From a virus: a stretch of DNA of 37,330 nucleotides. Location: the IMG/VR virus record IMGVR_UViG_3300046557_000349, positions 1 to 37,330 of that record; one strand, given 5' to 3'. This document shows, one piece after another, positions 22,922 through 37,329 of the stretch; positions within the stretch are counted from its first letter, which is position 1; each line of letters starts with the position of its first letter. The notes beneath the pieces were generated by a model, which was given only the letters and a program-made list of their open reading frames with translations, was not told the DNA's origin and searched no databases. A program made the position numbers and the translations under genes.

Positions 22922-23211
22922 CAGCCCATCTTCCAGACGCGCGCCAGGTTGCCACTGCTCTTGCACACCGATCCCACGAACACGCCCAGCACAATCACCA
23001 GCGGCCATGAGTTCTGCGGCATGACGAGTTGCCCTTTGCCGATGTAAACGACAGCGGATCCCGCTGCGACCATCACCACCCACGCAAGGCAACTCATGCT
23101 TCGACGGAAACGCGCACCGCGCCGGCGGAATGTGAACAACCGAACGAACAGTGCAACGCACAACCAGAACGTGGCCTGCGTGAGAACTTGCGGCATCAGT
23201 TGACTATCCAT
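22921..23211 (-). CDS. Phage holin family protein (second holin-like gene)
   Basis: This 96-residue protein has three membrane segments (FWLCVALFVRLFTF, MSCLAWVVMVAAGSAVVYIG, PLVIVLGVFVGSV) separated by a basic loop (RRRGARFRR). It resembles the 3-TM putative holin family of Pseudomonas and enterobacterial prophages. ATG 23211 has GGGAGG upstream and overlaps the preceding membrane protein gene by eight bases. With its neighbour it may be a holin/antiholin pair. Confidence 0.72.
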   Translation of the reverse strand: MDSQLMPQVLTQATFWLCVALFVRLFTFRRRGARFRRSMSCLAWVVMVAAGSAVVYIGKGQLVMPQNSWPLVIVLGVFVGSVCKSSGNLARVWKMG

Positions 23212-23557
23212 CCTGCCTCCCTTGCGGTTCAGCAATGAGGCCGCGCCTTTTGATGATGGCGAGCGCGACGGTAACGACCACAACCGAGGCGCCGAACGCC
23301 GCCGGCCCGGTGTACTTAAATGGCCTGGTACCGAACAACTCCACCTCGGCCATGCCTGGGGCGAACATGTAACCCATCACGAAAGACACCAGCAGGAACA
23401 AAACCCGCTTCCAGACCGGCAATTCCTCAGTGGTGGTGAAGAACACCAGAGAGCCAGCCAGCGCGCCGATCACCGCGAGCATGTCCACGCCCGCCAGCAG
23501 ACCAGTAGCCGCCAGTCCTACACCACCGGCCACGACAACAGTTGCCGGCTCGCTCAT
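23204..23557 (-). CDS. Putative holin, first late gene
   Basis: This 117-residue membrane protein has about four hydrophobic segments: VVVAGGVGLAATGLLAGVDM, a second starting AVIGALAGSLVFF, VLFLLVSFVMGYMFAPGM and GASVVVVTVALAII. A charged C-terminus follows. Similar proteins stand at the head of late operons in Pseudomonas prophages and are annotated as putative holins. The start at 23557 is set by AAGGAG eight bases upstream. It is the first gene after the P-box and terminator-containing leader, so it should be made early in the late phase. The family assignment is weaker than for the next gene. Confidence 0.65.
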   Translation of the reverse strand: MSEPATVVVAGGVGLAATGLLAGVDMLAVIGALAGSLVFFTTTEELPVWKRVLFLLVSFVMGYMFAPGMAEVELFGTRPFKYTGPAAFGASVVVVTVALAIIKRRGLIAEPQGRQDG

Positions 23558-23617: not shown

Positions 23618-23719
23618 AGGTGACCGGCACAGGGAAGGCCGGGTGAATCTGCACAGCACGTGCTCAGTCAGCGACTCAGGCGCAAATCGCATATCATGGG
23701 GACTTTTTACCTGCCGCCG

Positions 23720-23757: not shown

Positions 23758-23790
23758 ACGACATGAATGCAACCGCAATGTGACCACAAT
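23758..23790 (-). promoter_or_regulatory. PrtN P-box upstream of the late operon
   Basis: On the minus strand the unit ATTG-N2-GT-N3 is repeated at an exact 11-bp period: two full units and a third beginning ATTC instead of ATTG. This matches the P-box (ATTGnn(n)GTnn(n) repeats) known upstream of P. aeruginosa pyocin genes, where PrtN activates transcription. It lies about 200 bases upstream of the first late gene, and the prophage encodes its own PrtN-like protein at 30862-31104. Function is inferred from the match and the pairing. Confidence 0.75.
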
Positions 23791-23814
23791 GCGACAAGAT
23801 GCCCCGACGAGCGG

Positions 23815-24303
23815 TCAGAACAATCTGACCCGCGCAACCGCAGACGCTCGCAGAAGATTGGTTTCAACTGACCTCACACGGCGATTCCGTGCACGGCCTG
23901 GTGCGCTCCGCGCGGTCAGTATCACCAACACCTGCTGATGCAAGGCATGAACCCAGTTCCGATACGTCCGATCTGCGTTGTCGCCGAGACCAAGAATCGG
24001 CAACTGAGACCTGACCGACAACGCAGGTCGAGGCAGATACCGATTGCGAGCCAGCTTCGCAAGCAGCGCGCCCTTTTCAGACTGACGCTCAAGTTGTGCC
24101 AGCGCCGCGGCGACTTCCTGCGCAGCGTGATCCATACCACCTCCCGCCGCCATCATCAGATCGCGAGATCCCGGCGTGCCGCGAGGGGCAGAGCCGCCCC
24201 ATTCAATAATCGTCGCCATCGGACTGCCCAATCCGCCGCCGTCACCCACCCGGTTGAACTGATTACCCCAATGCTGCATGAGTTCTTCAACTTCATCGAT
24301 CAT
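23815..24303 (-). CDS. Probable antitermination Q-like late regulator
   Basis: This 162-residue basic protein starts MIDEVEELMQHWGNQFNR and ends with a highly Arg-rich tail. The middle resembles Q-type proteins (phage_antitermQ): a PMATIIEWGGSAPRGTPGSR segment, a helical AAALAQLERQ region, LARNRYL, then a helix-turn-helix-like LGLGDNADRTYRNWVHALHQ. Position also fits: it is the last gene before the late leader with its hairpins. The start has ATGA overlap with the previous gene. The match is recalled from the family pattern and not proven; an alternative is a DNA-binding protein of other function. Confidence 0.55.
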   Translation of the reverse strand: MIDEVEELMQHWGNQFNRVGDGGGLGSPMATIIEWGGSAPRGTPGSRDLMMAAGGGMDHAAQEVAAALAQLERQSEKGALLAKLARNRYLPRPALSVRSQLPILGLGDNADRTYRNWVHALHQQVLVILTARSAPGRARNRRVRSVETNLLRASAVARVRLF

Positions 24304-24635
24304 CGCCCTACCCCCCGAAAAATCGAACCCAACACAAATAAACCGCTACCCAACACAAACCCAACACAAATAAATCCCTTTAAATTCAGGCAAATAAAAC
24401 AATTTGAGTTGAGTGTGTCGGGTTGGTTGGGTTTTTCGTCCCTCGCATAGAGTTTTTTTGTTCGCCATTTGAGAGCATCGAAAAACATCACGCAGGCGCG
24501 TGCGCGACACGAAACCCAACACACCCCGCACAAAGCCCGTAAAGCCGCGAATTTCAAGACCTCGACCTGTGTCGGGTATCGAAAACCAACCCAACACGCA
24601 CCCGACACACCCAACACACATTTAGGTGTATTCAT
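24300..24635 (-). CDS. Small Cys/Val/Gly-rich protein encoded over iteron-like repeats
   Basis: This 111-residue frame of unknown function runs from an ATG that overlaps the primase stop (ATGA) to a TGA that overlaps the next start (ATGA). Such coupling at both ends argues that it is translated. Much of its sequence derives from the TGTGTTGGG-type repeats, giving repeated peptides such as CVLGVSGACWVGF, GVCWVSC and ICVGFVLGSGLFVLGSIF. Composition (Cys, Trp, Gly, Val, hydrophobic) is unlike its neighbours. It may be a membrane-active peptide, a short regulator like the Icd or Ash-like proteins of other prophages, or only a spacer that keeps the operon translated through the origin. Confidence 0.55.
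   Translation of the reverse strand: MNTPKCVLGVSGACWVGFRYPTQVEVLKFAALRALCGVCWVSCRARACVMFFDALKWRTKKLYARDEKPNQPDTLNSNCFICLNLKGFICVGFVLGSGLFVLGSIFRGVGR
24328..24620. repeat. Cluster of CCCAACACA iteron-like repeats, candidate replication origin
   Basis: On the plus strand, copies start at 24328, 24349 and 24360 (two of the three extend to CCCAACACAAATAAA), 24515, 24590 and 24610, and a CCCGACACAC variant at 24601. Inverted related copies lie at 24413-24434 (TGTGTCGGG then TTGGG) and 24567-24575. Short AT-rich stretches lie beside the first three copies. The cluster sits immediately downstream of the primase-helicase gene, where P4-like replication systems place origins recognised by the same protein. 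Confidence 0.6.
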
Positions 24636-27346
24636 GCTGCAGCCGCCTTGATGTGGTCCCAGTTGTCGACGTTCCAGCCCGCCAAACGCGCCTTGGCGCG
24701 CCAGTCACTGACGACGACCCCAAGGTCTGCCGCTTTCAGGGATGGGGAGCGGGAAGGCTCCAGATCAGCAGGGAAGAAAAACGCACCAAACTTTCGATTG
24801 TTGCCGTCTGTCCACGGTATCGAGCGTGACTTGTCCAACTCCGAACTGAGGAACAGCGCGAACTTCGTGTGACTCATGGCGTGCTCTTTGTTGCGCTGAC
24901 ACCATTCCAGGAACAACGCGAACACGTCGCTGGAGAGACAGACACCCCAGAGATCCCGACCCAGCTCACCGTACTTCCACAAATGAAGAAACGTCTGCCA
25001 CCCTGCCCGGCTCAACGCCACCAATCGCTCCCGCGCCTCCGTCTTGGGCGGTCGCGTTCGCTGGTCGAAGTCACCGAGATCCAGCGACAACAACCACGCG
25101 TGCAGCGCCGCAACGCCTCCGTTCTTGAGTTCGTGACCGACCGCCTTTTGCCGATCTGGCGGCAACGTCTGGTTCGGCCACATCACCAACATCCGGCGAT
25201 CGCTCTCACTGATGGGCCACGGCAGGATCTCGTTACTCAGGAACACCGCGTTCATGTGGTTGGACTCTTCCCAACCATTGATGAACTTCGATTCCATCCG
25301 CACGGTTTTGCCGGTGATCAAGTGCTTGATCTTGCCAACCTGGTTGTAGCGTTGATCACGGCTCACGACCTCTTCAAACACCGCCCAGAGCTTGCGGCTT
25401 TGCCAGGCGTTGAAGTTACTTTCCAACTGGGTCTGACCCACCGTTGCCGCGTACTGGCCGTAAAGCATGCCCAGCGCATCGGCGAACAACAGGCTTTTGC
25501 CCGAGCCTTCCATGATCGAGTGCATCAACACCGCCGTATCCATCTTCGCGCCGAGGTGCTGAAGCGGAAAAGCCAGCCAGCGCGTCAACCACCACGCCGC
25601 ATCGGCATCACCATTGCAAAGGAACTTGATCAACCAACGCAGGTTCGCGCACGCGTCATCGTCGCGAACCGGCTCAAGCGGCAAGCCATCAAACGTGTTG
25701 ATGTACACGCTCGGGTCTTTGGTCATGGTTGGATCGAAGACAATGTGGTCCACGTCCACCACACGCCGCTCGGCACTGTTCAACCACAACGGATAGGTAT
25801 CGCCCAACGCCATCTTCACGGCACCTTCGGCGATCCGGCGCTTCTTCTCCCGGTCCCACACGTCCTTCGTGCCATCGATATACACATAGCGCTCAGTCGG
25901 TGACATGCCGAACGCACCGCCTTTCTTGCCAGCCATCCGCCGCGCTTGCTCAATCTCACTGACGTGATCGCTCGAAATCAATTTGCGCTGTTCGGTGTTC
26001 TCCAGCCATTGCTTGGCCATGGGTTTACCGACACGCGCCTCAAACGCAGACTTTTTCATGACCTTGGACTGATCGAAGTCCCATACGTGGGTTGTCCCAT
26101 CGACGAGCGCATAACGACGCAACACCTGGTCAATACTCAGCGCCGCAGGTACATCCACGCCCCCCGCGCCCCCTTCAGGATCTGGAGCGGCCCCGCTGGG
26201 CGACGGTTCGCCATAGTTCGGCTCGCTCGGATCAATGGATGGGGTCGGGGGAAGATCGCGCGGATCGGGCCGGGACGCATGCTGCATACCCATCAACTGC
26301 GCAGCAGCCTTCACCGCCCGCGACTGATCGCCGGAATGCTCCAGCAGGCAAAACACCTCGAAGGCGTCATTCTGATGACCGTTGGCCAACGGATCCGCGC
26401 CGTGGTGCGAATAAACCTTGCCTTCGTTGACCGTGACACCCGGCAAGCCTGTACTGCTTTGCGGATAAAGCCATTTGCTGCCGCGCTTGATGTACCCGTG
26501 CGCCCGCAGCAGTTCTTCAACGTCATGGCAGCGGTTGAACTCATCAATCACCGACGGTGGCCTACCCGCTGCTGGCGGTGCACGCTTGATGACCTTCGCC
26601 GGCGGCTTCTTCGGCTTTGGTGCCCACGGGCACGCTGCCTCGGCATCGCGCTTGAAGAAATCCCAGTTTTTCCAGATGGCCAGAAGCTCATTAGTCAGCG
26701 TTGGCAAACCATCAGTAGCACTTGGCGGCGTACGCCAGGTGTAAGGCTTTCCGGTACCGGGATGGATCGAAGGCGGAAAGACGTCCTGCACCAACCCAGC
26801 GCGCAGCTCGAACACGGTGAAGCGCTTGTAGTTATCCGCCTCGGCCTTCGCCTCCGCTTCACCCGCCACGTCACCCGCCTCTTTTGCGGCCTTCGCTTTC
26901 GCCATCAGCCCCTTCCAGATGGAACCGTCCGGATCATTTTCATTCGGCCAAGAGAGCGAATGCCGCGACAGCTCGACGCCGTCCGGCAACTTGAACAACA
27001 CCCGAAACCGCAACGGGTTACCGACGATAGTCGGATACACCACGACCATTGCATCGAGATCAATGCCCAACTGTTCGTAGAGGACGTGACGCGTCCATTG
27101 AACATCGTCGACGTCCAGCGAGCAGACACGGCTTGGCCCGAGCACGACGCCCAAATTGTGGTTAGGGTTGCGTTGCCAGAATGCTTCGGCGGCATTGGCA
27201 TCGGTGATGTAACCGCCCGGCTTGTTCCAGCCCATGCCTTTCGGGGCTTTGTCACCGGGTTCAATTGAGACAAGGGCAAGACCGAAGGTTTCGATGTAAC
27301 GCTTTGCCCAATTGGAAATGGCGATTCCCTTTGCCGGCTCCGTCAT
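24632..27346 (-). CDS. Primase-polymerase / superfamily 3 (D5-like) helicase
   Basis: This 904-residue replication protein has an N-terminal bifunctional primase-polymerase domain (about residues 5-230) with metal ligands in CSLDVDDVQW (76-85) and RFRVLFKLPDG. A linker with HHGADPLANGHQNDAFEVFC follows, then a Pro-rich spacer (365-400). The C-terminal SF3-type helicase has Walker A MEGSGKS (612-618), Walker B-like LWAVFEEV and motif C FLSNEILPWPISESDRRMLV. It should unwind and prime the phage origin. The ATG at 27346 overlaps the zinc-finger gene stop (ATGA), fixing the start; the 15 extra codons upstream lie inside that gene. Confidence 0.9.
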   Translation of the reverse strand: MTEPAKGIAISNWAKRYIETFGLALVSIEPGDKAPKGMGWNKPGGYITDANAAEAFWQRNPNHNLGVVLGPSRVCSLDVDDVQWTRHVLYEQLGIDLDAMVVVYPTIVGNPLRFRVLFKLPDGVELSRHSLSWPNENDPDGSIWKGLMAKAKAAKEAGDVAGEAEAKAEADNYKRFTVFELRAGLVQDVFPPSIHPGTGKPYTWRTPPSATDGLPTLTNELLAIWKNWDFFKRDAEAACPWAPKPKKPPAKVIKRAPPAAGRPPSVIDEFNRCHDVEELLRAHGYIKRGSKWLYPQSSTGLPGVTVNEGKVYSHHGADPLANGHQNDAFEVFCLLEHSGDQSRAVKAAAQLMGMQHASRPDPRDLPPTPSIDPSEPNYGEPSPSGAAPDPEGGAGGVDVPAALSIDQVLRRYALVDGTTHVWDFDQSKVMKKSAFEARVGKPMAKQWLENTEQRKLISSDHVSEIEQARRMAGKKGGAFGMSPTERYVYIDGTKDVWDREKKRRIAEGAVKMALGDTYPLWLNSAERRVVDVDHIVFDPTMTKDPSVYINTFDGLPLEPVRDDDACANLRWLIKFLCNGDADAAWWLTRWLAFPLQHLGAKMDTAVLMHSIMEGSGKSLLFADALGMLYGQYAATVGQTQLESNFNAWQSRKLWAVFEEVVSRDQRYNQVGKIKHLITGKTVRMESKFINGWEESNHMNAVFLSNEILPWPISESDRRMLVMWPNQTLPPDRQKAVGHELKNGGVAALHAWLLSLDLGDFDQRTRPPKTEARERLVALSRAGWQTFLHLWKYGELGRDLWGVCLSSDVFALFLEWCQRNKEHAMSHTKFALFLSSELDKSRSIPWTDGNNRKFGAFFFPADLEPSRSPSLKAADLGVVVSDWRAKARLAGWNVDNWDHIKAAAA

Positions 27347-27549
27347 CGCCGAGCCTCCCGCAGCCCCTGACAATGGACGCAGGTTTCGCAACCCTCGATC
27401 GCCTGTTGTCGAAGCAACGGAATGGCTTCATCGCAATCCTCGCAGAACTGCGCACTGACGCGACTCGAAGCAACGCGACGGTTCAGGTGGATTGCAACAT
27501 CGAGCAGGTATTGCGCTTGGTCATTGGCGCGATCGATATCGTCAGCCAT
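27343..27549 (-). CDS. TraR/DksA-type zinc finger protein
   Basis: This 68-residue protein begins ADDIDRANDQAQYLLDVAIH and carries a C4 zinc finger: FCEDCDEAIPLLRQQAIEGC followed by ETCVHC. These are features of short TraR/DksA family members. Such proteins bind the RNA polymerase secondary channel and mimic DksA with ppGpp, changing promoter choice. It overlaps the CII-like gene by eight bases and the primase gene by four. The upstream extension to 27672 belongs to another frame of the CII-like gene. Confidence 0.85.
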   Translation of the reverse strand: MADDIDRANDQAQYLLDVAIHLNRRVASSRVSAQFCEDCDEAIPLLRQQAIEGCETCVHCQGLREARR

Positions 27550-28030
27550 TGTCCTGCCCCTCCATCGCCTGCCGTGCACCGGCCATGATGCCCAGCACCG
27601 CCTGAATGACATCGATGCCGTATTTGTCCAGCGTGGCGACTTCGTGCGGCTCCCAAACGTTGTCGGCCGCACCGGCGTGCATGCTCGAAACGAACTCGCC
27701 GGTTCGCTCCAGCAACTTGCCGACAGACTTCAACGCCTCAGACGTTGCAGGCACCGGAGTCGGCTTGTACCAAACGGCACCCGCCGGACGCACAAGCGCA
27801 TCTAGCAACGCGGGATTTTGCGTCAGCCGGATAACCTCTTCGAGTTCATCCGGAGTCAGCCAGCGCCGCTCTTCATTGAGTTTGAGTTTCTTCTGCAGCT
27901 CGTCGTAGTCCATGAACATGTCATGAGCCAACGTGGTGATGCCGCCTCGGAAATCACGCCCAGCGCGATAAAGCGCCTCGCGCAAAGAAAGAACCGGGCC
28001 AGCGCCCGGAAGGAGATCTGTGCGACTCAT
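27542..28030 (-). CDS. CII-like phage regulatory protein
   Basis: This 162-residue protein has LSLREALYRAGRDFRGGITT, LAHDMFMDYDELQKKLKLNE and RRWLTPDELEEVIRLTQNP: the phage regulatory protein CII (CP76/YmfL) pattern with an N-terminal helix-turn-helix. In this operon position, after the Cro-like gene, it should influence the lysogeny decision or early transcription. The start codon is directly preceded by a hairpin (28033-28053), and no clear ribosome site is outside it. Confidence 0.8.
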   Translation of the reverse strand: MSRTDLLPGAGPVLSLREALYRAGRDFRGGITTLAHDMFMDYDELQKKLKLNEERRWLTPDELEEVIRLTQNPALLDALVRPAGAVWYKPTPVPATSEALKSVGKLLERTGEFVSSMHAGAADNVWEPHEVATLDKYGIDVIQAVLGIMAGARQAMEGQDNG

Positions 28031-28032
28031 AA

Positions 28033-28053
28033 CCGTAAATACCCCGTTTACGG
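28033..28053 (-). promoter_or_regulatory. Hairpin at the CII-like start codon
   Basis: CCGTAAA pairs with TTTACGG around a seven-base loop. The structure ends two bases before the ATG at 28030. The only purine-rich stretch that could serve as a ribosome site (CGGGG) is in the loop. This suggests translation control or a processing signal at the junction between cro-like and cII-like genes. No T-run follows, so a terminator is unlikely. Confidence 0.45.
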
Positions 28054-28171
28054 CCTAGCCTTCAGATGGGACACGCCCTATCCTACGACCACGACCGATG
28101 TGCATGTGCTGTGTATCGTCGTAGCCGGGCTGGGGGATTCTTTGGTGAGAGGCCCCAGTCCGGCACCCCTT

Positions 28172-28420
28172 TCAGGCCGCCTGCAGATCAGCAGGTAGCA
28201 AAAAAACATCGGGACGGAGAACGTCTCGCGCTATCCCCGTCTTCAGCTCAACTCGTAGAACCAGTTCAGCGGGTAACTCCCCTTTTCTGAACCAGTAGGA
28301 AACAAGCTGTTGCGATACCGGCCGATCTTCGGTCGACACCAGCACCGCGAACGCGGCCTGACCACCGGCAAGGCTAATGGCCTCTGCTAGCGCCTCTCGC
28401 TTGGAATTCGAAATGCTCAT
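28172..28420 (-). CDS. Cro/YdaS-like repressor
   Basis: This 82-residue helix-turn-helix protein has SKREALAEAISLAGGQAAFA, then SQQLVSYWFRKGELPAELVL and VELKTGIARDVLRPDVFLL. This is the YdaS/Cro-like arrangement, with the family-typical RPDVF ending. It is the first gene of the leftward early operon, divergent from CI across the three operators. ATG 28420 has AGAGG upstream. The frame is open to 28600, but that extension runs through the operators and into CI. Confidence 0.88.
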   Translation of the reverse strand: MSISNSKREALAEAISLAGGQAAFAVLVSTEDRPVSQQLVSYWFRKGELPAELVLRVELKTGIARDVLRPDVFLLPADLQAA

Positions 28421-28526
28421 CTCAACCTCTGGATCTGAAGTACAGACCAAAAATACAACTAAATTTGTAAACGAACAACATGTTTTTATGTTGGAACAAA
28501 TACAAATCTTTTTGTAGCCTTCTTTG
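28421..28526. promoter_or_regulatory. Divergent cI-cro control region
   Basis: This AT-rich 106-bp region between divergent regulators contains three dyads whose centres are 23-24 bp apart: TACAA-N6-TTGTA at 28454-28469, CAACAT-N6-ATGTTG at 28476-28493, and TACAA-N6-TTGTA at 28501-28516. The first and third have identical arms. The layout matches a lambda-type OR1-OR3 set. Promoters for both genes must overlap it, but -35/-10 boxes cannot be fixed with confidence. Confidence 0.78.
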
Positions 28527-29282
28527 ATGACCGAATCAACACCCAAGCCAAGCCGCATAGCTGTCCTATTCAAGACCCGACGCGAAGAGCTAAACCTCAC
28601 TCAAGAGGAAGTAGCAAGCAGGGTTAACGCGCTTCTTTCGCCTCCTAAAAGGCTCACGCAGCAGGTCTATGCTGCGTTTGAAAAAGGGAAGTCTCAGACC
28701 ACCAAACACGCAATCACCATTGCCCAGGTACTGGACATTCCGCTGAACGCGCTAGATGAAAACTTCCCGACTTCCCGACTCAAAGCCGGCGCTACGCCAG
28801 ACGCAAGGATAATTGCTGGACCTACAGAGCTATGGGATGAGGAATCTCCACTCCATGATGAAGTAGAGGTTCCCTTGCTCAAGGAAATAGAACTGAACGA
28901 TGGTTCAGGACACACAATAGTTAGAGCGCAAGGCACATTTAGGCTTGGGGTCACCAAGAAATCCTTGGAAGAAATGGGTATCCAGATCGAGGATGTTGTC
29001 TGCATCGAGGTATCCGGCAACAGCATGGAACCAGTCATTCCAGACGGCGGGAAAGCCGGGGTTGATCGCGGCCGCACGACGATTAAGGATGGCGATATGT
29101 TCGCAGTCCTTCACAACGGGCAGATCCGGGTGAAGATGCTGTATCGGATGGCTCGCGGCGGCCTTCGCATGCGTAGCTTCAATCGTGAAGAGCACCCTGA
29201 TGAAGAGTATCCGGCAGAACAGGTACGCGAAGAACAGATAGAAATTCTGGGTCGCATTTTCTGGTACTCAGTTCTTCGATAA
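28527..29282 (+). CDS. cI: CI-like repressor with S24 (LexA-type) peptidase domain
   Basis: This 251-residue repressor has an N-terminal helix-turn-helix (residues 10-75, REELNLTQEEVASRVNALL then TQQVYAAFEKG). A linker follows, then an S24 domain with catalytic Ser166 (SGNSMEPVIPDG) and Lys203 (QIRVKMLYR). Autocleavage stimulated by RecA is expected. An Ala-Gly pair at 97-98 (RIIAGP) is a candidate cut site, but this is uncertain. The ATG at 28527 has no good ribosome site and an in-frame TTG precedes it, so initiation may be weak or from a near-leaderless message. It should maintain lysogeny by binding the dyads upstream. Confidence 0.9.
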   Translation: MTESTPKPSRIAVLFKTRREELNLTQEEVASRVNALLSPPKRLTQQVYAAFEKGKSQTTKHAITIAQVLDIPLNALDENFPTSRLKAGATPDARIIAGPTELWDEESPLHDEVEVPLLKEIELNDGSGHTIVRAQGTFRLGVTKKSLEEMGIQIEDVVCIEVSGNSMEPVIPDGGKAGVDRGRTTIKDGDMFAVLHNGQIRVKMLYRMARGGLRMRSFNREEHPDEEYPAEQVREEQIEILGRIFWYSVLR

Positions 29283-29302
29283 CCACCTCCTCTTCCTAAA
29301 AG

Positions 29303-29328
29303 AAAACCCGCCTAGCGCGGGTTTTTTT
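29303..29328 (+). terminator. Intrinsic terminator after cI
   Basis: AACCCGC (29305-29311) pairs with GCGGGTT (29317-29323) around a five-base loop, followed by a T-run on the plus strand and preceded by an A-run. It ends the CI message 20 bases after the stop and separates it from the next promoter; it could also work in reverse. Confidence 0.88.
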
Positions 29329-29359
29329 ATACCTCCCACAAAATTAACAAAAAACACCG

Positions 29360-29391
29360 TTGACCAAAATACAAATAAACACGTATTGTTT
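29360..29391 (+). promoter_or_regulatory. Candidate promoter of the rightward operon
   Basis: TTGACC (29360-29365) and TATTGT (29384-29389), 18 bases apart, form a plausible sigma-70 promoter pointing to the gene at 29424. A dyad AATAC-N10-GTATT (29368-29387) overlaps it and could be a repressor site, but it does not share the arms of the cI-cro operators. Placement after the CI terminator supports an independent start here. Confidence 0.5.
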
Positions 29392-29423
29392 GTTTCGTAC
29401 ACCTCTCACCAAGAGTACGAGCC

Positions 29424-29621
29424 ATGCAAACGACACAGCACAGCAACACCCGCTGCCCGGTGTACCTACATCCGGCAGCGTGCACCAGTCCAGCAGCCGT
29501 CGAAGCGATTCAAAAGAACACCGGCCTGCTGGTAATCGTCACCCCCGGCGCTCGCCTGGCATCCGCAAAAGCGGTAGCCGCGGCGGCTGACCTAGGACCA
29601 TTCGGGGGTGACGCGGCATGA
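29424..29621 (+). CDS. Small conserved prophage protein of unknown function
   Basis: This 65-residue protein (NTRCPVYLHPAACTSPAAVE, then IQKNTGLLVIVTPGARLASA) has no domain that I recognise, though short proteins of this kind open early operons of Pseudomonas prophages. Its stop overlaps the ATG of the dNMP kinase (ATGA), supporting expression. It has two Cys and a hydrophobic beta-like strand (GLLVIVT), and no membrane segment. Confidence 0.7.
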   Translation: MQTTQHSNTRCPVYLHPAACTSPAAVEAIQKNTGLLVIVTPGARLASAKAVAAAADLGPFGGDAA

Positions 29622-30190
29622 CGCCTCTATTGCTCGGCCTCGCCGGCCTCGCTCGCTCTGGCAAAGACACCGCAGCCCAGCACCTGGTGAACCATCACGG
29701 TTTCCAGTCGTACGCGTTCGCGGACCCGCTGCGGGATGGCCTGATGCACATCCTTAATCTGAGCCCCTGCGACTTCGAAGGGGACAAGAAGGAACAGCCG
29801 CTGCCGTGGCTTGGCCGCTCTCCCCGCCAGTTGATGCAGTCCCTCGGCACGGAATGGGGGCGCAACAGCGTTCACCCCGAACTCTGGTTGCTGCTTGCCG
29901 CGCAGAACCTCGACCTACTCGCCCGTACTCACGACCACGCGAAGGGGTTCGTGGTGAGTGATATCCGATTCGAGAACGAAGCGGATTTCATCCGAAAGCG
30001 CGGAGGCCTCGTCATCCACCTGCAACGCCCTACAGCTAAGCAAGTGAACTCGCACATCAGCGAGAGCGGCGTCGAGGTACAGGCCAAAGATATTGTCATC
30101 ACCAATGACGGATCTATTGATGACTTCCAGAAGCATCTCACCGTGACCCTTTCCCTATTGACCCTCGGCGCCACGCCGCGCGTTGCCTGA
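29618..30190 (+). CDS. Deoxynucleoside monophosphate kinase-like protein
   Basis: This 190-residue P-loop kinase has LGLAGLARSGKDTAAQHLV (Walker A, residues 6-18), SYAFADPLRDGLMHIL and the SPRQLMQSLGTEWGR block. FVVSDIRFENEADFI and GGLVIHLQRPTA follow. These are features of phage dNMP kinases (T4 gp1-like). It should phosphorylate dNMPs, possibly including modified ones, to supply DNA synthesis. It is coupled to the upstream small gene and followed by the KilAC-like gene. Confidence 0.86.
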   Translation: MTPLLLGLAGLARSGKDTAAQHLVNHHGFQSYAFADPLRDGLMHILNLSPCDFEGDKKEQPLPWLGRSPRQLMQSLGTEWGRNSVHPELWLLLAAQNLDLLARTHDHAKGFVVSDIRFENEADFIRKRGGLVIHLQRPTAKQVNSHISESGVEVQAKDIVITNDGSIDDFQKHLTVTLSLLTLGATPRVA

Positions 30191-30200
30191 GGACTGTGCC

Positions 30201-30485
30201 ATGACGAACCGCACCCTGGACGAAACGGCCGCCGTGCTGGGCCTCAAACCCCGCAAGTTCCGCACCCGGTTGCGCGAACTCAAAGTGCTGACCCAAAGCG
30301 GTGACCTGGCCAGCCAGCACCGTGACCGCGGCTATCTGTTTTCGGACACCCGCAGCCGCTGGAACGACCACATCAGAGGCTACAGCCACTACGCCGTCGT
30401 GATGGTCACCGAAAAGGGAGTCGAGTGGCTGGCAAAGCAACTCGGCATCGGCATCAAAGCCCAGAACAAGGACGCCGCAGCATGA
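30201..30485 (+). CDS. KilAC-domain (phage antirepressor) protein
   Basis: This 94-residue protein consists almost only of a KilAC/ANT-type winged DNA-binding domain: TLDETAAVLGLKPRKFRTRL, the RDRGYLFSDTRSRWNDHI region and YAVVMVTEKGVEWLAKQLG. Full antirepressors usually have an N-terminal BRO or Rha domain, which is absent. ATG 30201 follows GAGGA at seven bases. It may regulate early transcription or antagonise CI. Confidence 0.8.
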   Translation: MTNRTLDETAAVLGLKPRKFRTRLRELKVLTQSGDLASQHRDRGYLFSDTRSRWNDHIRGYSHYAVVMVTEKGVEWLAKQLGIGIKAQNKDAAA

Positions 30486-30865
30486 ACAGCAACTACCTCA
30501 ACGCTCATTGTCACGCGCTCGGCAGCCTTCGACTGATCCCTGTCTACCTCGACAGCCCGGGCATCGTCAGCCGCGCGACACTCATCGGCGCAGCAAGCGA
30601 AGCCATTGAAATGCTCAGCAGCGTGCCGCTGCGTGTGCTCGAACTGGCCGACGTCTATCGCTGCGTCAACAACGTGATCCTCGAAGGCCAGACCGCCTAC
30701 GTCACCCCGACTAACTCGCCGGAGTATCCATTCGGCGCCGTTGTCGCGGACGAAAACGGAAACGTCCGTGCGGCCGCAATGGGTAAAAGCAAAGAAGGTC
30801 TCGCCGAGATGATCCGCTTGAAGTTGCTGCCCCCAACAGAGGGGCACGGGGAGAAAGCAACGTGA
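30482..30865 (+). CDS. Conserved prophage protein of unknown function
   Basis: This 127-residue protein overlaps the KilAC gene by four bases (ATGA) and the PrtN-like gene by four. It contains YLNAHCHALGSLRLIPVYLD, SVPLRVLELADVYRCVNNVI and EYPFGAVVADENGNVRAAAM. No catalytic motif or membrane segment can be named. The tight coupling to PrtN suggests joint expression. Confidence 0.68.
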   Translation: MNSNYLNAHCHALGSLRLIPVYLDSPGIVSRATLIGAASEAIEMLSSVPLRVLELADVYRCVNNVILEGQTAYVTPTNSPEYPFGAVVADENGNVRAAAMGKSKEGLAEMIRLKLLPPTEGHGEKAT

Positions 30866-31104
30866 GCGCCACCATCGACCAACTGCAAAAGGAATGGCCG
30901 ACACCCTGCCCGACGTTGTCCGCCGTTCGGCAGCGCTACTTCTCGCACATCACCAGCGATCGCTACCTGCTACGACGCATCAGCGCCGGCCGCATTGCGC
31001 TGAAGGTGACCCGTCTCGGCGGATCAGCCAAAGGCACCGCTGTCGTTTACCTGCATGACCTGGCTGCATACCTCGACGCTCAAGCGACGAAGCAAGCGGC
31101 CTGA
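30862..31104 (+). CDS. prtN: Pyocin activator PrtN family protein
   Basis: This 80-residue protein resembles the C-terminal two-thirds and overall size of PrtN: VRQRYFSHITSDRYLLRRIS, AGRIALKVTRLGG and VVYLHDLAAYLDAQAT. In P. aeruginosa PrtN activates pyocin genes by binding P-boxes. Here a P-box at 23758-23790 lies before the prophage's own late operon, so this protein is probably the late activator. It starts with GTG overlapping the previous stop (GTGA). Confidence 0.85.
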   Translation: MSATIDQLQKEWPTPCPTLSAVRQRYFSHITSDRYLLRRISAGRIALKVTRLGGSAKGTAVVYLHDLAAYLDAQATKQAA

Positions 31105-35680: not shown

Positions 35681-35856
35681 CAGCCCTACGCAGGACCGTT
35701 CGGATTCGCCGCGGACAAATGCCACCACTGGATCTCGTCACCATTTGCGATAAGTGCAACAAGTCGCGAGCGCACGGGAACCACGATAAATGCAGCAAAC
35801 AACGCCAGGTTGAAGGCATCGCTAGACGGGAGGCAATCGATGGAATTTCAAAGTGA
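35677..35856 (+). CDS. Small Cys/His-containing basic protein
   Basis: This 59-residue protein starts with an ATG overlapping the methyltransferase stop (ATGA) and ends 16 bases inside the next gene. It has TICDKCNKSRAHGNHDKCSK, a possible zinc-binding CxxC...HxxxC cluster, in a strongly basic protein. This suggests nucleic-acid binding. No family can be named. Coupling to the methyltransferase hints at an accessory role. Confidence 0.65.
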   Translation: MTALRRTVRIRRGQMPPLDLVTICDKCNKSRAHGNHDKCSKQRQVEGIARREAIDGISK

Positions 35857-36076
35857 AACTCTTACTGACGATGAGCTGGCCACCATCACCGGCTACAAAA
35901 TCCCGTCCTGCCAACGCCAGTGGCTGACGAACAACCACTGGGAGTTCGTTGTAACCGGTGCTCAGCGTCCAGTTGTAGGTCGGGTATACGCCCGGCTGAA
36001 GCTGGCAGGGGTCAAACCTACGGCGACTAACGCCGTAGCTGAGACCTGGACTCTTGACCTAGCAAGCGTAGGCTGA
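35840..36076 (+). CDS. DUF4224 domain protein next to integrase
   Basis: This 78-residue protein has the DUF4224 pattern: LTDDELATITGYKIPSCQRQ then WLTNNHWEFV. Such proteins stand directly before integrase genes in many Pseudomonas and enterobacterial prophages. A role in excision control is a reasonable guess, since no other excisionase candidate is seen. ATG 35840 follows GGGAGG at six bases and overlaps the end of the small Cys/His gene. Confidence 0.8.
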   Translation: MEFQSETLTDDELATITGYKIPSCQRQWLTNNHWEFVVTGAQRPVVGRVYARLKLAGVKPTATNAVAETWTLDLASVG

Positions 36077-36078
36077 CG

Positions 36079-37155
36079 ATGCGACAGAAGAAATCAGCCA
36101 ACCGAGACTTGCCACCACGGATGATCCGGCGCACACGCAAGAGGAAATGCGGTACGACCTGGACGGGTTACTACTACAACGGCAGAGACGCTGAAGGTAA
36201 CCGGGTTGAGATTCCTCTCGGGGGCGACCTCGACGAAGCCAAGATCGAATGGGCGCGGCTTGATCGCAAAGCCACACCGAAACCGGCCCATTTGATGGGC
36301 CGGCTTTTTGATGACTACGAAAAAAAGGTGATACCGACCCTAAAGCCAGGCACTCAAAGCGACTATCTAAAAGGATTGAAACAACTTCGCCAGGTGTTTG
36401 ATGCTGACAAGCCCGCCCCGATCGACGCGATCACCCCGCAAGTAATCGCGCAGTATCGAGACGCACGCACGGCGAAGGTACGAGCCAACCGGGAGATAGC
36501 GCTCCTTTCCACCATGTTCACCTTTGCCCGCGAGTGGGGCCTGACCGACAAGGCCAACCCCTGCTTTGGCTTGCGGCGGAACAAGGAGACGCCTCGGGAC
36601 TTCTACGCCGGCGATATCATCTGGAATGCTGTGTACGAACAGGCCGGACAAGATCTCAAGGACGCAATGGACTTGGCATACCTGACCGGGCAGCGCCCGG
36701 CCGACGTGCTAAAGGCATCAACCACCGATCTCAACCATGGTTTTCTGATGGTTGGCCAAGGCAAAACGGAAAAACGTCTGAGGATCCGCCTATACGATGG
36801 AGACAAGGAGACGGACCTCTGCGTTTTCATCAACGGTCTACTTGATCGACGCGCCCAAGCAGGCACCAGGACATCGATCCTGATCACCAACCAGACCGGA
36901 CTACGCATGAGCTACAACATGTTGCGCAACCGCTGGGACGAAGCCCGCGACAAGGCAGCAACGAAGGCTGCAACCGACGGGGATGCCGAGCTGGCCATCA
37001 CAATTCGGAAGTTTCAATTCAGAGACATCCGACCGAAGGCCGGCAGCGAAATCGAAGATATCAAGGATGCAAGCCGCCTGCTTGGGCACTCAACCGAAGA
37101 GATGACAAAGAAGGTTTACCGTCGTGTCGGCGAGATCGTAAAACCAACGAAATGA
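36079..37155 (+). CDS. int: Tyrosine-recombinase integrase
   Basis: This 358-residue integrase has a basic N-terminal arm-binding domain (residues 10-65, GYYYNGRDAEGNRVEIPLGG), a core-binding domain (70-165) and the catalytic domain. Catalytic residues are Arg206 (LTGQRPADVL), Lys229 (GQGKTEKR), Arg318 in FQFRDIRPKAG (with Arg315 where a His is common), His337 (LLGHS) and Tyr347 (KVYRR) as nucleophile. It lies 60 bases from the right att repeat in tRNA-Cys. It starts two bases after the DUF4224 stop, so both are transcribed together. Confidence 0.93.
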   Translation: MRQKKSANRDLPPRMIRRTRKRKCGTTWTGYYYNGRDAEGNRVEIPLGGDLDEAKIEWARLDRKATPKPAHLMGRLFDDYEKKVIPTLKPGTQSDYLKGLKQLRQVFDADKPAPIDAITPQVIAQYRDARTAKVRANREIALLSTMFTFAREWGLTDKANPCFGLRRNKETPRDFYAGDIIWNAVYEQAGQDLKDAMDLAYLTGQRPADVLKASTTDLNHGFLMVGQGKTEKRLRIRLYDGDKETDLCVFINGLLDRRAQAGTRTSILITNQTGLRMSYNMLRNRWDEARDKAATKAATDGDAELAITIRKFQFRDIRPKAGSEIEDIKDASRLLGHSTEEMTKKVYRRVGEIVKPTK

Positions 37156-37214: not shown

Positions 37215-37303
37215 AAAAAACCCCGTAGATCACTGATCTACGGGGCTTTTAAGAGTGGAGGCCGAGGTCGGAATCGAACCGGCGTAGGTGGATTTGCAAT
37301 CCA
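37215..37303. repeat. Right attachment-site direct repeat
   Basis: This is the second copy of the 89-bp repeat. It contains the phage-supplied 3' part of tRNA-Cys, which restores the gene, and the copied downstream terminator. Identity with the left copy ends at 37303, in the anticodon stem. Confidence 0.93.
37217..37251. terminator. Terminator downstream of tRNA-Cys
   Basis: The inverted repeat CCCCGTAGATCA (37221-37232) and complement has an A-run on one side and a T-run on the other, working in both directions. It ends the tRNA transcript (minus strand) and also that of int (plus strand). Confidence 0.87.
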
Positions 37304-37329
37304 CTGCATAACCATTTTGCTACTCGGCC
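37256..37329 (-). tRNA. tRNA-Cys (GCA)
   Basis: This 74-nt gene reads on the minus strand from 37329. The acceptor GGCCGAG pairs with CTCGGCC, the discriminator is U73 (a tRNA-Cys feature) and CCA is encoded. The anticodon loop is TTGCAAA with GCA, and the T arm carries GGTTCGATTCC. The phage carries an identical 3' part, so integration leaves it functional. Confidence 0.96.

Follow-up and report, generated by a model that had tools for sequence, protein, structure and literature searches.

PrtN has been the textbook activator of pyocins for 30 years, and so far it is known as a pyocin switch. In the R-, F- and S-pyocins of Pseudomonas aeruginosa, control involves this PF11112 activator, an S24 self-cleaving repressor and the P-box, a tandem array of 10-11 nt units of the form ATTGnn(n)GTnn(n), usually four in number (PMC4905994). 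The pyocin cassette also carries PA0613, which lies among its regulatory genes ahead of the holin gene PA0614 (PMC8262887) and is induced together with the pyocin genes (PMC1250226); the papers that we consulted gave no description of PA0613 function. At the AlpA-controlled alpB promoter of P. aeruginosa, the spacer between -35 and -10 contains the binding element GGGACGN5GGTA (PMC7969949), and the pause motif CACGAT occupies -1 to +5, where A+1 and T+5 are required (PMC9371919).

We compared these systems with a window of 37,330 nucleotides, an IMG/VR virus record with packaging, head, tail, replication, repressor and integrase genes and a tRNA-Cys at its end. The first-pass annotation saw a complete, terminase-bearing phage here, and the gene content confirms it, with the two subunits of terminase, head, sheath, tape measure, primase, CI, integrase and tRNA-Cys. 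The locus shares with pyocin control the PF11112 activator, the tandem boxes, an S24 repressor and a PA0613-family gene. In contrast to the pyocins, it belongs to a complete phage bearing terminase and integrase, its prtN lies within a long operon rather than adjoining a prtR, and related phages use several further box alphabets. With AlpA/alpBCDE it has in common an element, placed between the -35 and the -10, whose closing GGTA falls at -14 to -11, a pause motif of the CACGAT type from -1 to +5, a terminator downstream and a holin as the first gene; however, the phage adds an upstream activator, the low-confidence model of its Q-like protein has no fold match, and the likeness seen is one of promoter architecture. 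The Q systems of lambda, 21 and 82 resemble it in late-operon position, pause motif, promoter binding element and leader terminator (PMC9371919), but their proteins match the Q-like protein of the window neither in sequence nor in fold. Cox of P2, Apl of 186 and RdfN are similar to PrtN in size, predicted winged helix-turn-helix (wHTH) fold and association with direct repeats about one turn apart, although they act at att and early promoters, while the repeats here stand at a late promoter, in a phage with another gene as its excisionase candidate. To our knowledge, classical Q promoters need no PrtN-type activator. We propose, with a probability of roughly three in four, that the late operon of this Pseudomonas phage would be held by two locks, a PrtN activator and a PA0613/Q-like antiterminator, with CI silencing upstream.

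The locus ahead of the late genes

The PrtN-family gene (30862-31104, plus strand) encodes 80 aa and belongs to PF11112 (E=1.9e-23; 82.8 bits against a curated cut-off of 24.2), as had been claimed. Its AlphaFold2 model (pLDDT 86) predicts a wHTH with a recognition helix at residues 33-41 and wing strands at 50-52 and 59-61. On the minus strand, the Q-like gene (23815-24303), a putative antiterminator gene, precedes the late promoter region. The first late gene is a holin (23204-23557, minus strand, PHROG 198), followed by a second holin, HNH, TerS, TerL and the head and tail genes.

Between the Q-like gene and the holin, a three-unit ATTG-N2-GT repeat of 11-bp period had been noted, and it is indeed present at 23790-23758 on the minus strand. 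Its units, which we consider putative PrtN boxes of type A, are ATTGTGGTCAC (23790-23780), ATTGCGGTTGC (23779-23769) and ATTCATGTCGT (23768-23758), the third reading ATTC instead of ATTG. Measured against the P-box consensus, for which we used the published pattern (PMC4905994), the array consists of two perfect units and one single-mismatch unit, with a period of 11 and no clear fourth. With up to one mismatch, a two-unit pattern has the boxes as its sole site in the window (2 overlapping matches against 0.15 expected), and a four-unit scan scores 20.7 there, where shuffled 20-kb stretches reach 18.0 at most. Relative to the inferred start, the boxes occupy about -93 to -61, a usual position for an activator. 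A CCGTTCGTCGGGG-like conserved motif (23802-23814, minus strand) is located between the Q-like stop codon and the boxes, and is also found in relatives. When genome contigs were scanned with the P-box pattern, the matches came mainly from unrelated AT-rich genomes, and the strict three-unit form occurred in only 3 of 399 Pseudomonadaceae genomes; the exact consensus is therefore too rare to be useful as a genome-wide marker and was dropped.

Downstream of the boxes is a palindrome, ACCGAAAA-N7-TTTTCGGT (23747-23725, minus strand), which overlaps the -35 region and is kept in relatives regardless of repeat type. The core late promoter (23732-23704, minus strand) comprises a -35 TTTTCG (23732-23727), a spacer with a putative Q site and a -10 TAAAAA (23709-23704), a layout that occurs once in the window. 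It is followed by the pause-like element CATGAT (23698-23693, minus strand), with A+1 at 23697 and T+5 at 23693. The start site was derived from this register, setting the phage CACGAT to -1 to +5 as at the AlpA promoter; GGTA then falls at -14 to -11 and the -10 at -12 to -7, with a poor -35 and a spacer of 17 bp. The register is that of the AlpA antitermination promoters: poor -35, spacer element, -10, pause motif and terminator. Of the two leader terminators previously proposed, the intrinsic terminator at 23617-23598 (minus strand, about +81 to +100) stands, being downstream of the inferred start in a leader with strong folding around it. The hairpin at 23747-23725 was rejected as a terminator because it is upstream of the inferred start and overlaps the -35; it is a promoter element.

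Two further regions of the window deserve mention. The gap between the primase and Q-like genes contains five copies of CCCAACACA (24320-24620), a word present six times in the whole window against 0.42 expected; these copies are possibly replication iterons, and a 111-aa ORF covering the region (24300-24635), which has no family match, may not be a real gene. ARAGORN reports a tRNA-Ala at 30227-30324 (minus strand) within a coding gene; Rfam does not report it there, and the call is probably false.

Repeat types and their co-variation with PrtN

Using the Q-like protein and PrtN as queries, we found 34 and 80 loci as relatives, and an automatic layout check was passed by 109 of the 116 loci with a Q-like match. 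The common plan after the Q-like gene is tandem repeats, the palindrome, GTAAAAAG, CACGATATG, a GC-rich terminator and a late gene, usually a holin. Across these relatives the repeats vary; the palindrome, core promoter and leader are nearly constant. The repeats fall into type A, (ATTGTGGTCGT)n, which is the pyocin P-box pattern, type B, (GCGTCAAAGTT)n, type C, (GTGCGGTCGAA)n, and type E, (GCGCCGAAGnn)n, a single case, all with a period near 11. Reduced to a non-redundant set, the relatives comprise 65 distinct phages (26 A, 31 B, 7 C and 1 E), which carry the repeats in these several alphabets.

In all 65 the spacing of the core promoter is fixed, with no indel, and CAYGATVTG stands at a constant register in 63; the window has CATGAT where most relatives have CACGAT, with A+1 and T+5 retained. 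The promoters of Lodos and PG1 are more diverged, and PG1 lacks the T at +5. In PG1 the Q-like gene (L468:7525-8016, WID41963.1) carries the name of a formate-dependent phosphoribosylglycinamide formyltransferase, apparently in error, and the PG1 holin is annotated 'pyocin R2'. PrtN accompanies the leader in 73 of the 73 loci with at least 7.8 kb of upstream sequence, and in 25 of 25 among those found via the Q gene alone. Outside the 65-phage set, phages KT1 and SC_9_H1H8_2017 combine a B-type PrtN with B-type repeats.

The variation of the repeats follows PrtN. Over the 65 phages, the more alike two PrtNs are in their recognition and wing residues, the more alike are the repeats (r=0.65), and this holds once Q identity and the PrtN N-terminus are removed (partial r=0.60; 0 of 999 permutations, the best permuted value being 0.14). 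Repeats and Q-like protein show r=0.06. With the reading residues accounted for, the repeats correlate at -0.02 with the PrtN N-terminus and at -0.24 with Q. Three PrtN rows were left out of these statistics; the loci concerned carry a type B PrtN. Residues 31, 32, 38, 39, 53, 57 and 58 of PrtN split the 26 type A from the 31 type B phages without exception, and the AlphaFold2 model places them in or near the recognition helix (33-41) and wing (50-61). On the Q-like gene tree there are 12 changes of repeat type, at least five A/B changes being forced by supported branches, and PrtN switched along with the repeats in 5/5 supported independent pairs, a number too small to reach p<0.05 in a sign test. 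L011 resembles a recombinant that arose in nature: its PrtN joins a B-like N-terminus to A-type reading residues, and its repeats are A-type. Linkage explains the overall pattern poorly, since some 6.5 kb separate prtN from the repeats whereas the Q gene is only about 20 bp away from them. We take the co-variation as strong evidence that PrtN specifically recognizes the repeats, and, together with the constant company of PrtN at leader loci, it bears out the earlier idea that this phage pairs PrtN with a P-box at its own late operon. An array of only three units, the third imperfect, might resemble the P-box by chance or as a relic, but the scan values in the window, the conserved position and the matching of repeats to PrtN type across 65 phages leave that explanation next to no weight.

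Could PrtN instead be an excision factor with no late role, like RdfN in dusA-specific elements, the repeats serving another regulator? Its family, PHROG 1300, is named 'excisionase', the PF11112 protein RdfN is required for excision (PMC8409611), and by TM-score the top solved fold for our PrtN model is, weakly, a phage P2 DNA-binding protein (4lhf; TM 0.52, E 0.25). However, a DUF4224 excisionase candidate (35810-36076, plus strand), apart from PrtN, sits beside the tyrosine integrase gene (36079-37155, plus strand), which adjoins the tRNA-Cys (37256-37329). PrtN is thereby not the sole excision candidate, as an RdfN-type role would have it, and no box array was found near the integrase and att end. 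Moreover, some phages have two PF11112 genes, one of them from a different clade, and the repeats co-vary with PrtN, so that we regard a purely excisive role as very unlikely.

P2 Cox is an excision factor that also controls transcription, and we take 4lhf to be this protein. PrtN might likewise be dual, excising the phage and activating its late genes, in the way that Cox and the Apl protein of phage 186 combine two tasks, and the weak 4lhf match would agree with this. Apl, too, would fit, as an excisionase and transcription regulator that binds direct repeats one DNA turn apart (PMC7498355). The separate DUF4224 gene adjoining the integrase and the lack of a second box array in the window speak against such a double role, which seems to us quite unlikely. 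Activation of the late promoter is our preferred role for PrtN.

Two PF11112 genes per phage occur in L360, L362, L366, L370, L375, L376 and G041, one of the late-activator clade and the other of an MNTxxLLMAQY clade whose members are probably excision factors. A search for P-boxes around the MNTxxLLMAQY-clade genes found none above background, and this clade was dropped as a box-reading PrtN; its genes look like a different paralogue. One phage record (L047; G006:C1:17694-18313) has its two PF11112 genes about 400 bp apart.

The Q-like protein and its pyocin counterpart

The Q-like protein of the window has no Pfam family, but it falls into PHROG 4300 (1.1e-46) and hence into the PA0613/PHROG 4300 family. 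NCBIfam NF051483 (PA0613) matches its N-terminus at 1.9e-4, below the model cut-off. The PA0613-type proteins of 12 Pseudomonas tailocin clusters belong to PHROG 4300 in 12 of 12 cases, and hhalign joins the Q-like and PA0613 profiles at 96.9% (E 1.5e-10); judged by sequence, the Q-like protein and pyocin PA0613 are one family. A search of its structural model against the PDB returned no Q21 or AlpA fold match, the model having a mean pLDDT of only 72 and about 50 at residues 21-50, and so antitermination by this protein is something we infer.

Similarity of the spacer element (-29 to -15) correlates with that of the Q-like C-terminus (r=0.83; partial 0.67; 0 of 999 permutations), against 0.12 for PrtN. 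Linkage may explain part of this, because the Q gene is only about 100 bp from the spacer element. Repeats tracking PrtN and spacer tracking the Q-like protein form a double dissociation. At the level of sequence, the comparisons show that the parts are present, how they are spaced, that they occur together and that they co-vary in two ways, and the Q-like protein is probably an antiterminator. The antitermination layer suggested by the first-pass annotation is supported by promoter anatomy and by kinship with PA0613, both of them read from sequence.

Alternatively, PrtN alone could drive the late operon, with the Q-like gene a passenger or serving another function. Pyocin models invoke only PrtN (PMC8609362; PMC10598620), and the missing antiterminator fold would fit. 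Nevertheless, Q-like gene, spacer element, pause motif and terminator stay together in the 65 relatives, the spacer tracks the Q-like protein, and the same family also stands ahead of tailocin late promoters; we consider control by PrtN alone unlikely and favor the two-lock reading.

The layout of the phages recurs in chromosomal tailocin clusters: 24 distinct ones that carry a PA0613-type gene have repeats of 11 bp, a palindrome (GGCA...TGCC) that covers the -35 region and GTAAAAAG or GTATAAA, with A+1 and T+5 present in those promoters inspected by eye. The repeats of one tailocin cluster, ATTGCTGGTGT ATTGCCGTTG ATTGC, agree with ATTGnn(n)GTnn(n) (PMC4905994). In L425-L437, the stretch from the PA0613-type gene to the repeats holds dense direct and inverted GTGGGACA/TGTCCCAC-like words, which fill the last 250-400 nt ahead of the tailocin late promoter. 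In other genomes (L442, L443, L445-L447, L449, L450, L452, L453, L462 and L463), PrtN and PA0613-type genes lie close by with no tailocin-type leader after them.

A proposed two-lock switch for late genes

Upstream of PrtN, the window encodes a CI-type repressor with an S24 self-cleavage domain (28524-29282, plus strand), the putative functional counterpart of PrtR. An operator-like sequence, AAATACAAxTxxxTTTGTA, occurs in three copies, two beside cI (28451-28469 and 28498-28516) and one (29367-29385) inside the promoter-like site of the PrtN operon (29360-29389, plus strand). By analogy with PrtR-PrtN, and with a gene order of CI and PrtN that differs from the pyocin cassette, these positions suggest a cascade from repressor to PrtN to late genes. 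PrtN and the Q-like protein are both probably under this SOS-cleavable repressor.

In the switch that we propose, CI would probably keep the PrtN operon silent until DNA damage. PrtN, made from this rightward operon, would then bind the array of 11-bp boxes, which follow each other at intervals of one helical turn between about -61 and -93, and would activate a late promoter whose -35 is poor. The PA0613/Q-like protein would load between -35 and -10 during the pause that polymerase makes at CATGAT, within the first transcribed bases, and the loaded polymerase would continue past the leader terminator to transcribe the genes for lysis, packaging and the virion. DNA binding and activation by PrtN, antitermination and CI control are the steps that we infer from sequence.

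The first-pass annotation had also raised cross-activation between this prophage and host pyocins, in either direction. Our findings do not support this. Only type A resembles the P-box, and the phage PrtN belongs to a clade other than that of the tailocin PrtNs. Furthermore, if the second, phage-specific lock is real, host PrtN alone would yield just short terminated transcripts and no late switch-on. The variety of box alphabets suggests selection for insulation rather than cross-talk.

We found no report in the literature of PrtN/P-box control in complete phages. Such control, together with a PA0613/Q-like layer, would be new, and for the PrtN half the comparative evidence is unusually strong at the sequence level. 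On a wider scale, we could speculate, at even odds, that a two-key late switch, with PrtN-type proteins reading exchangeable alphabets and PA0613-type proteins reading the spacer, runs a broad group of Pseudomonas phages, that pyocins and tailocins inherited the whole switch with PA0613 as an overlooked antiterminator, and that the alphabets insulate. If true, alphabet switches would insulate co-resident prophages and tailocins from one another's activators.

Our results tie PrtN and PA0613-type genes to one late-promoter design, common to phages and tailocins and similar to AlpA promoters. The data form a natural table of PrtN residues against the matching DNA repeats, and two old questions can now be tested: how PrtN recognizes its box, and whether antitermination is required for pyocin expression.
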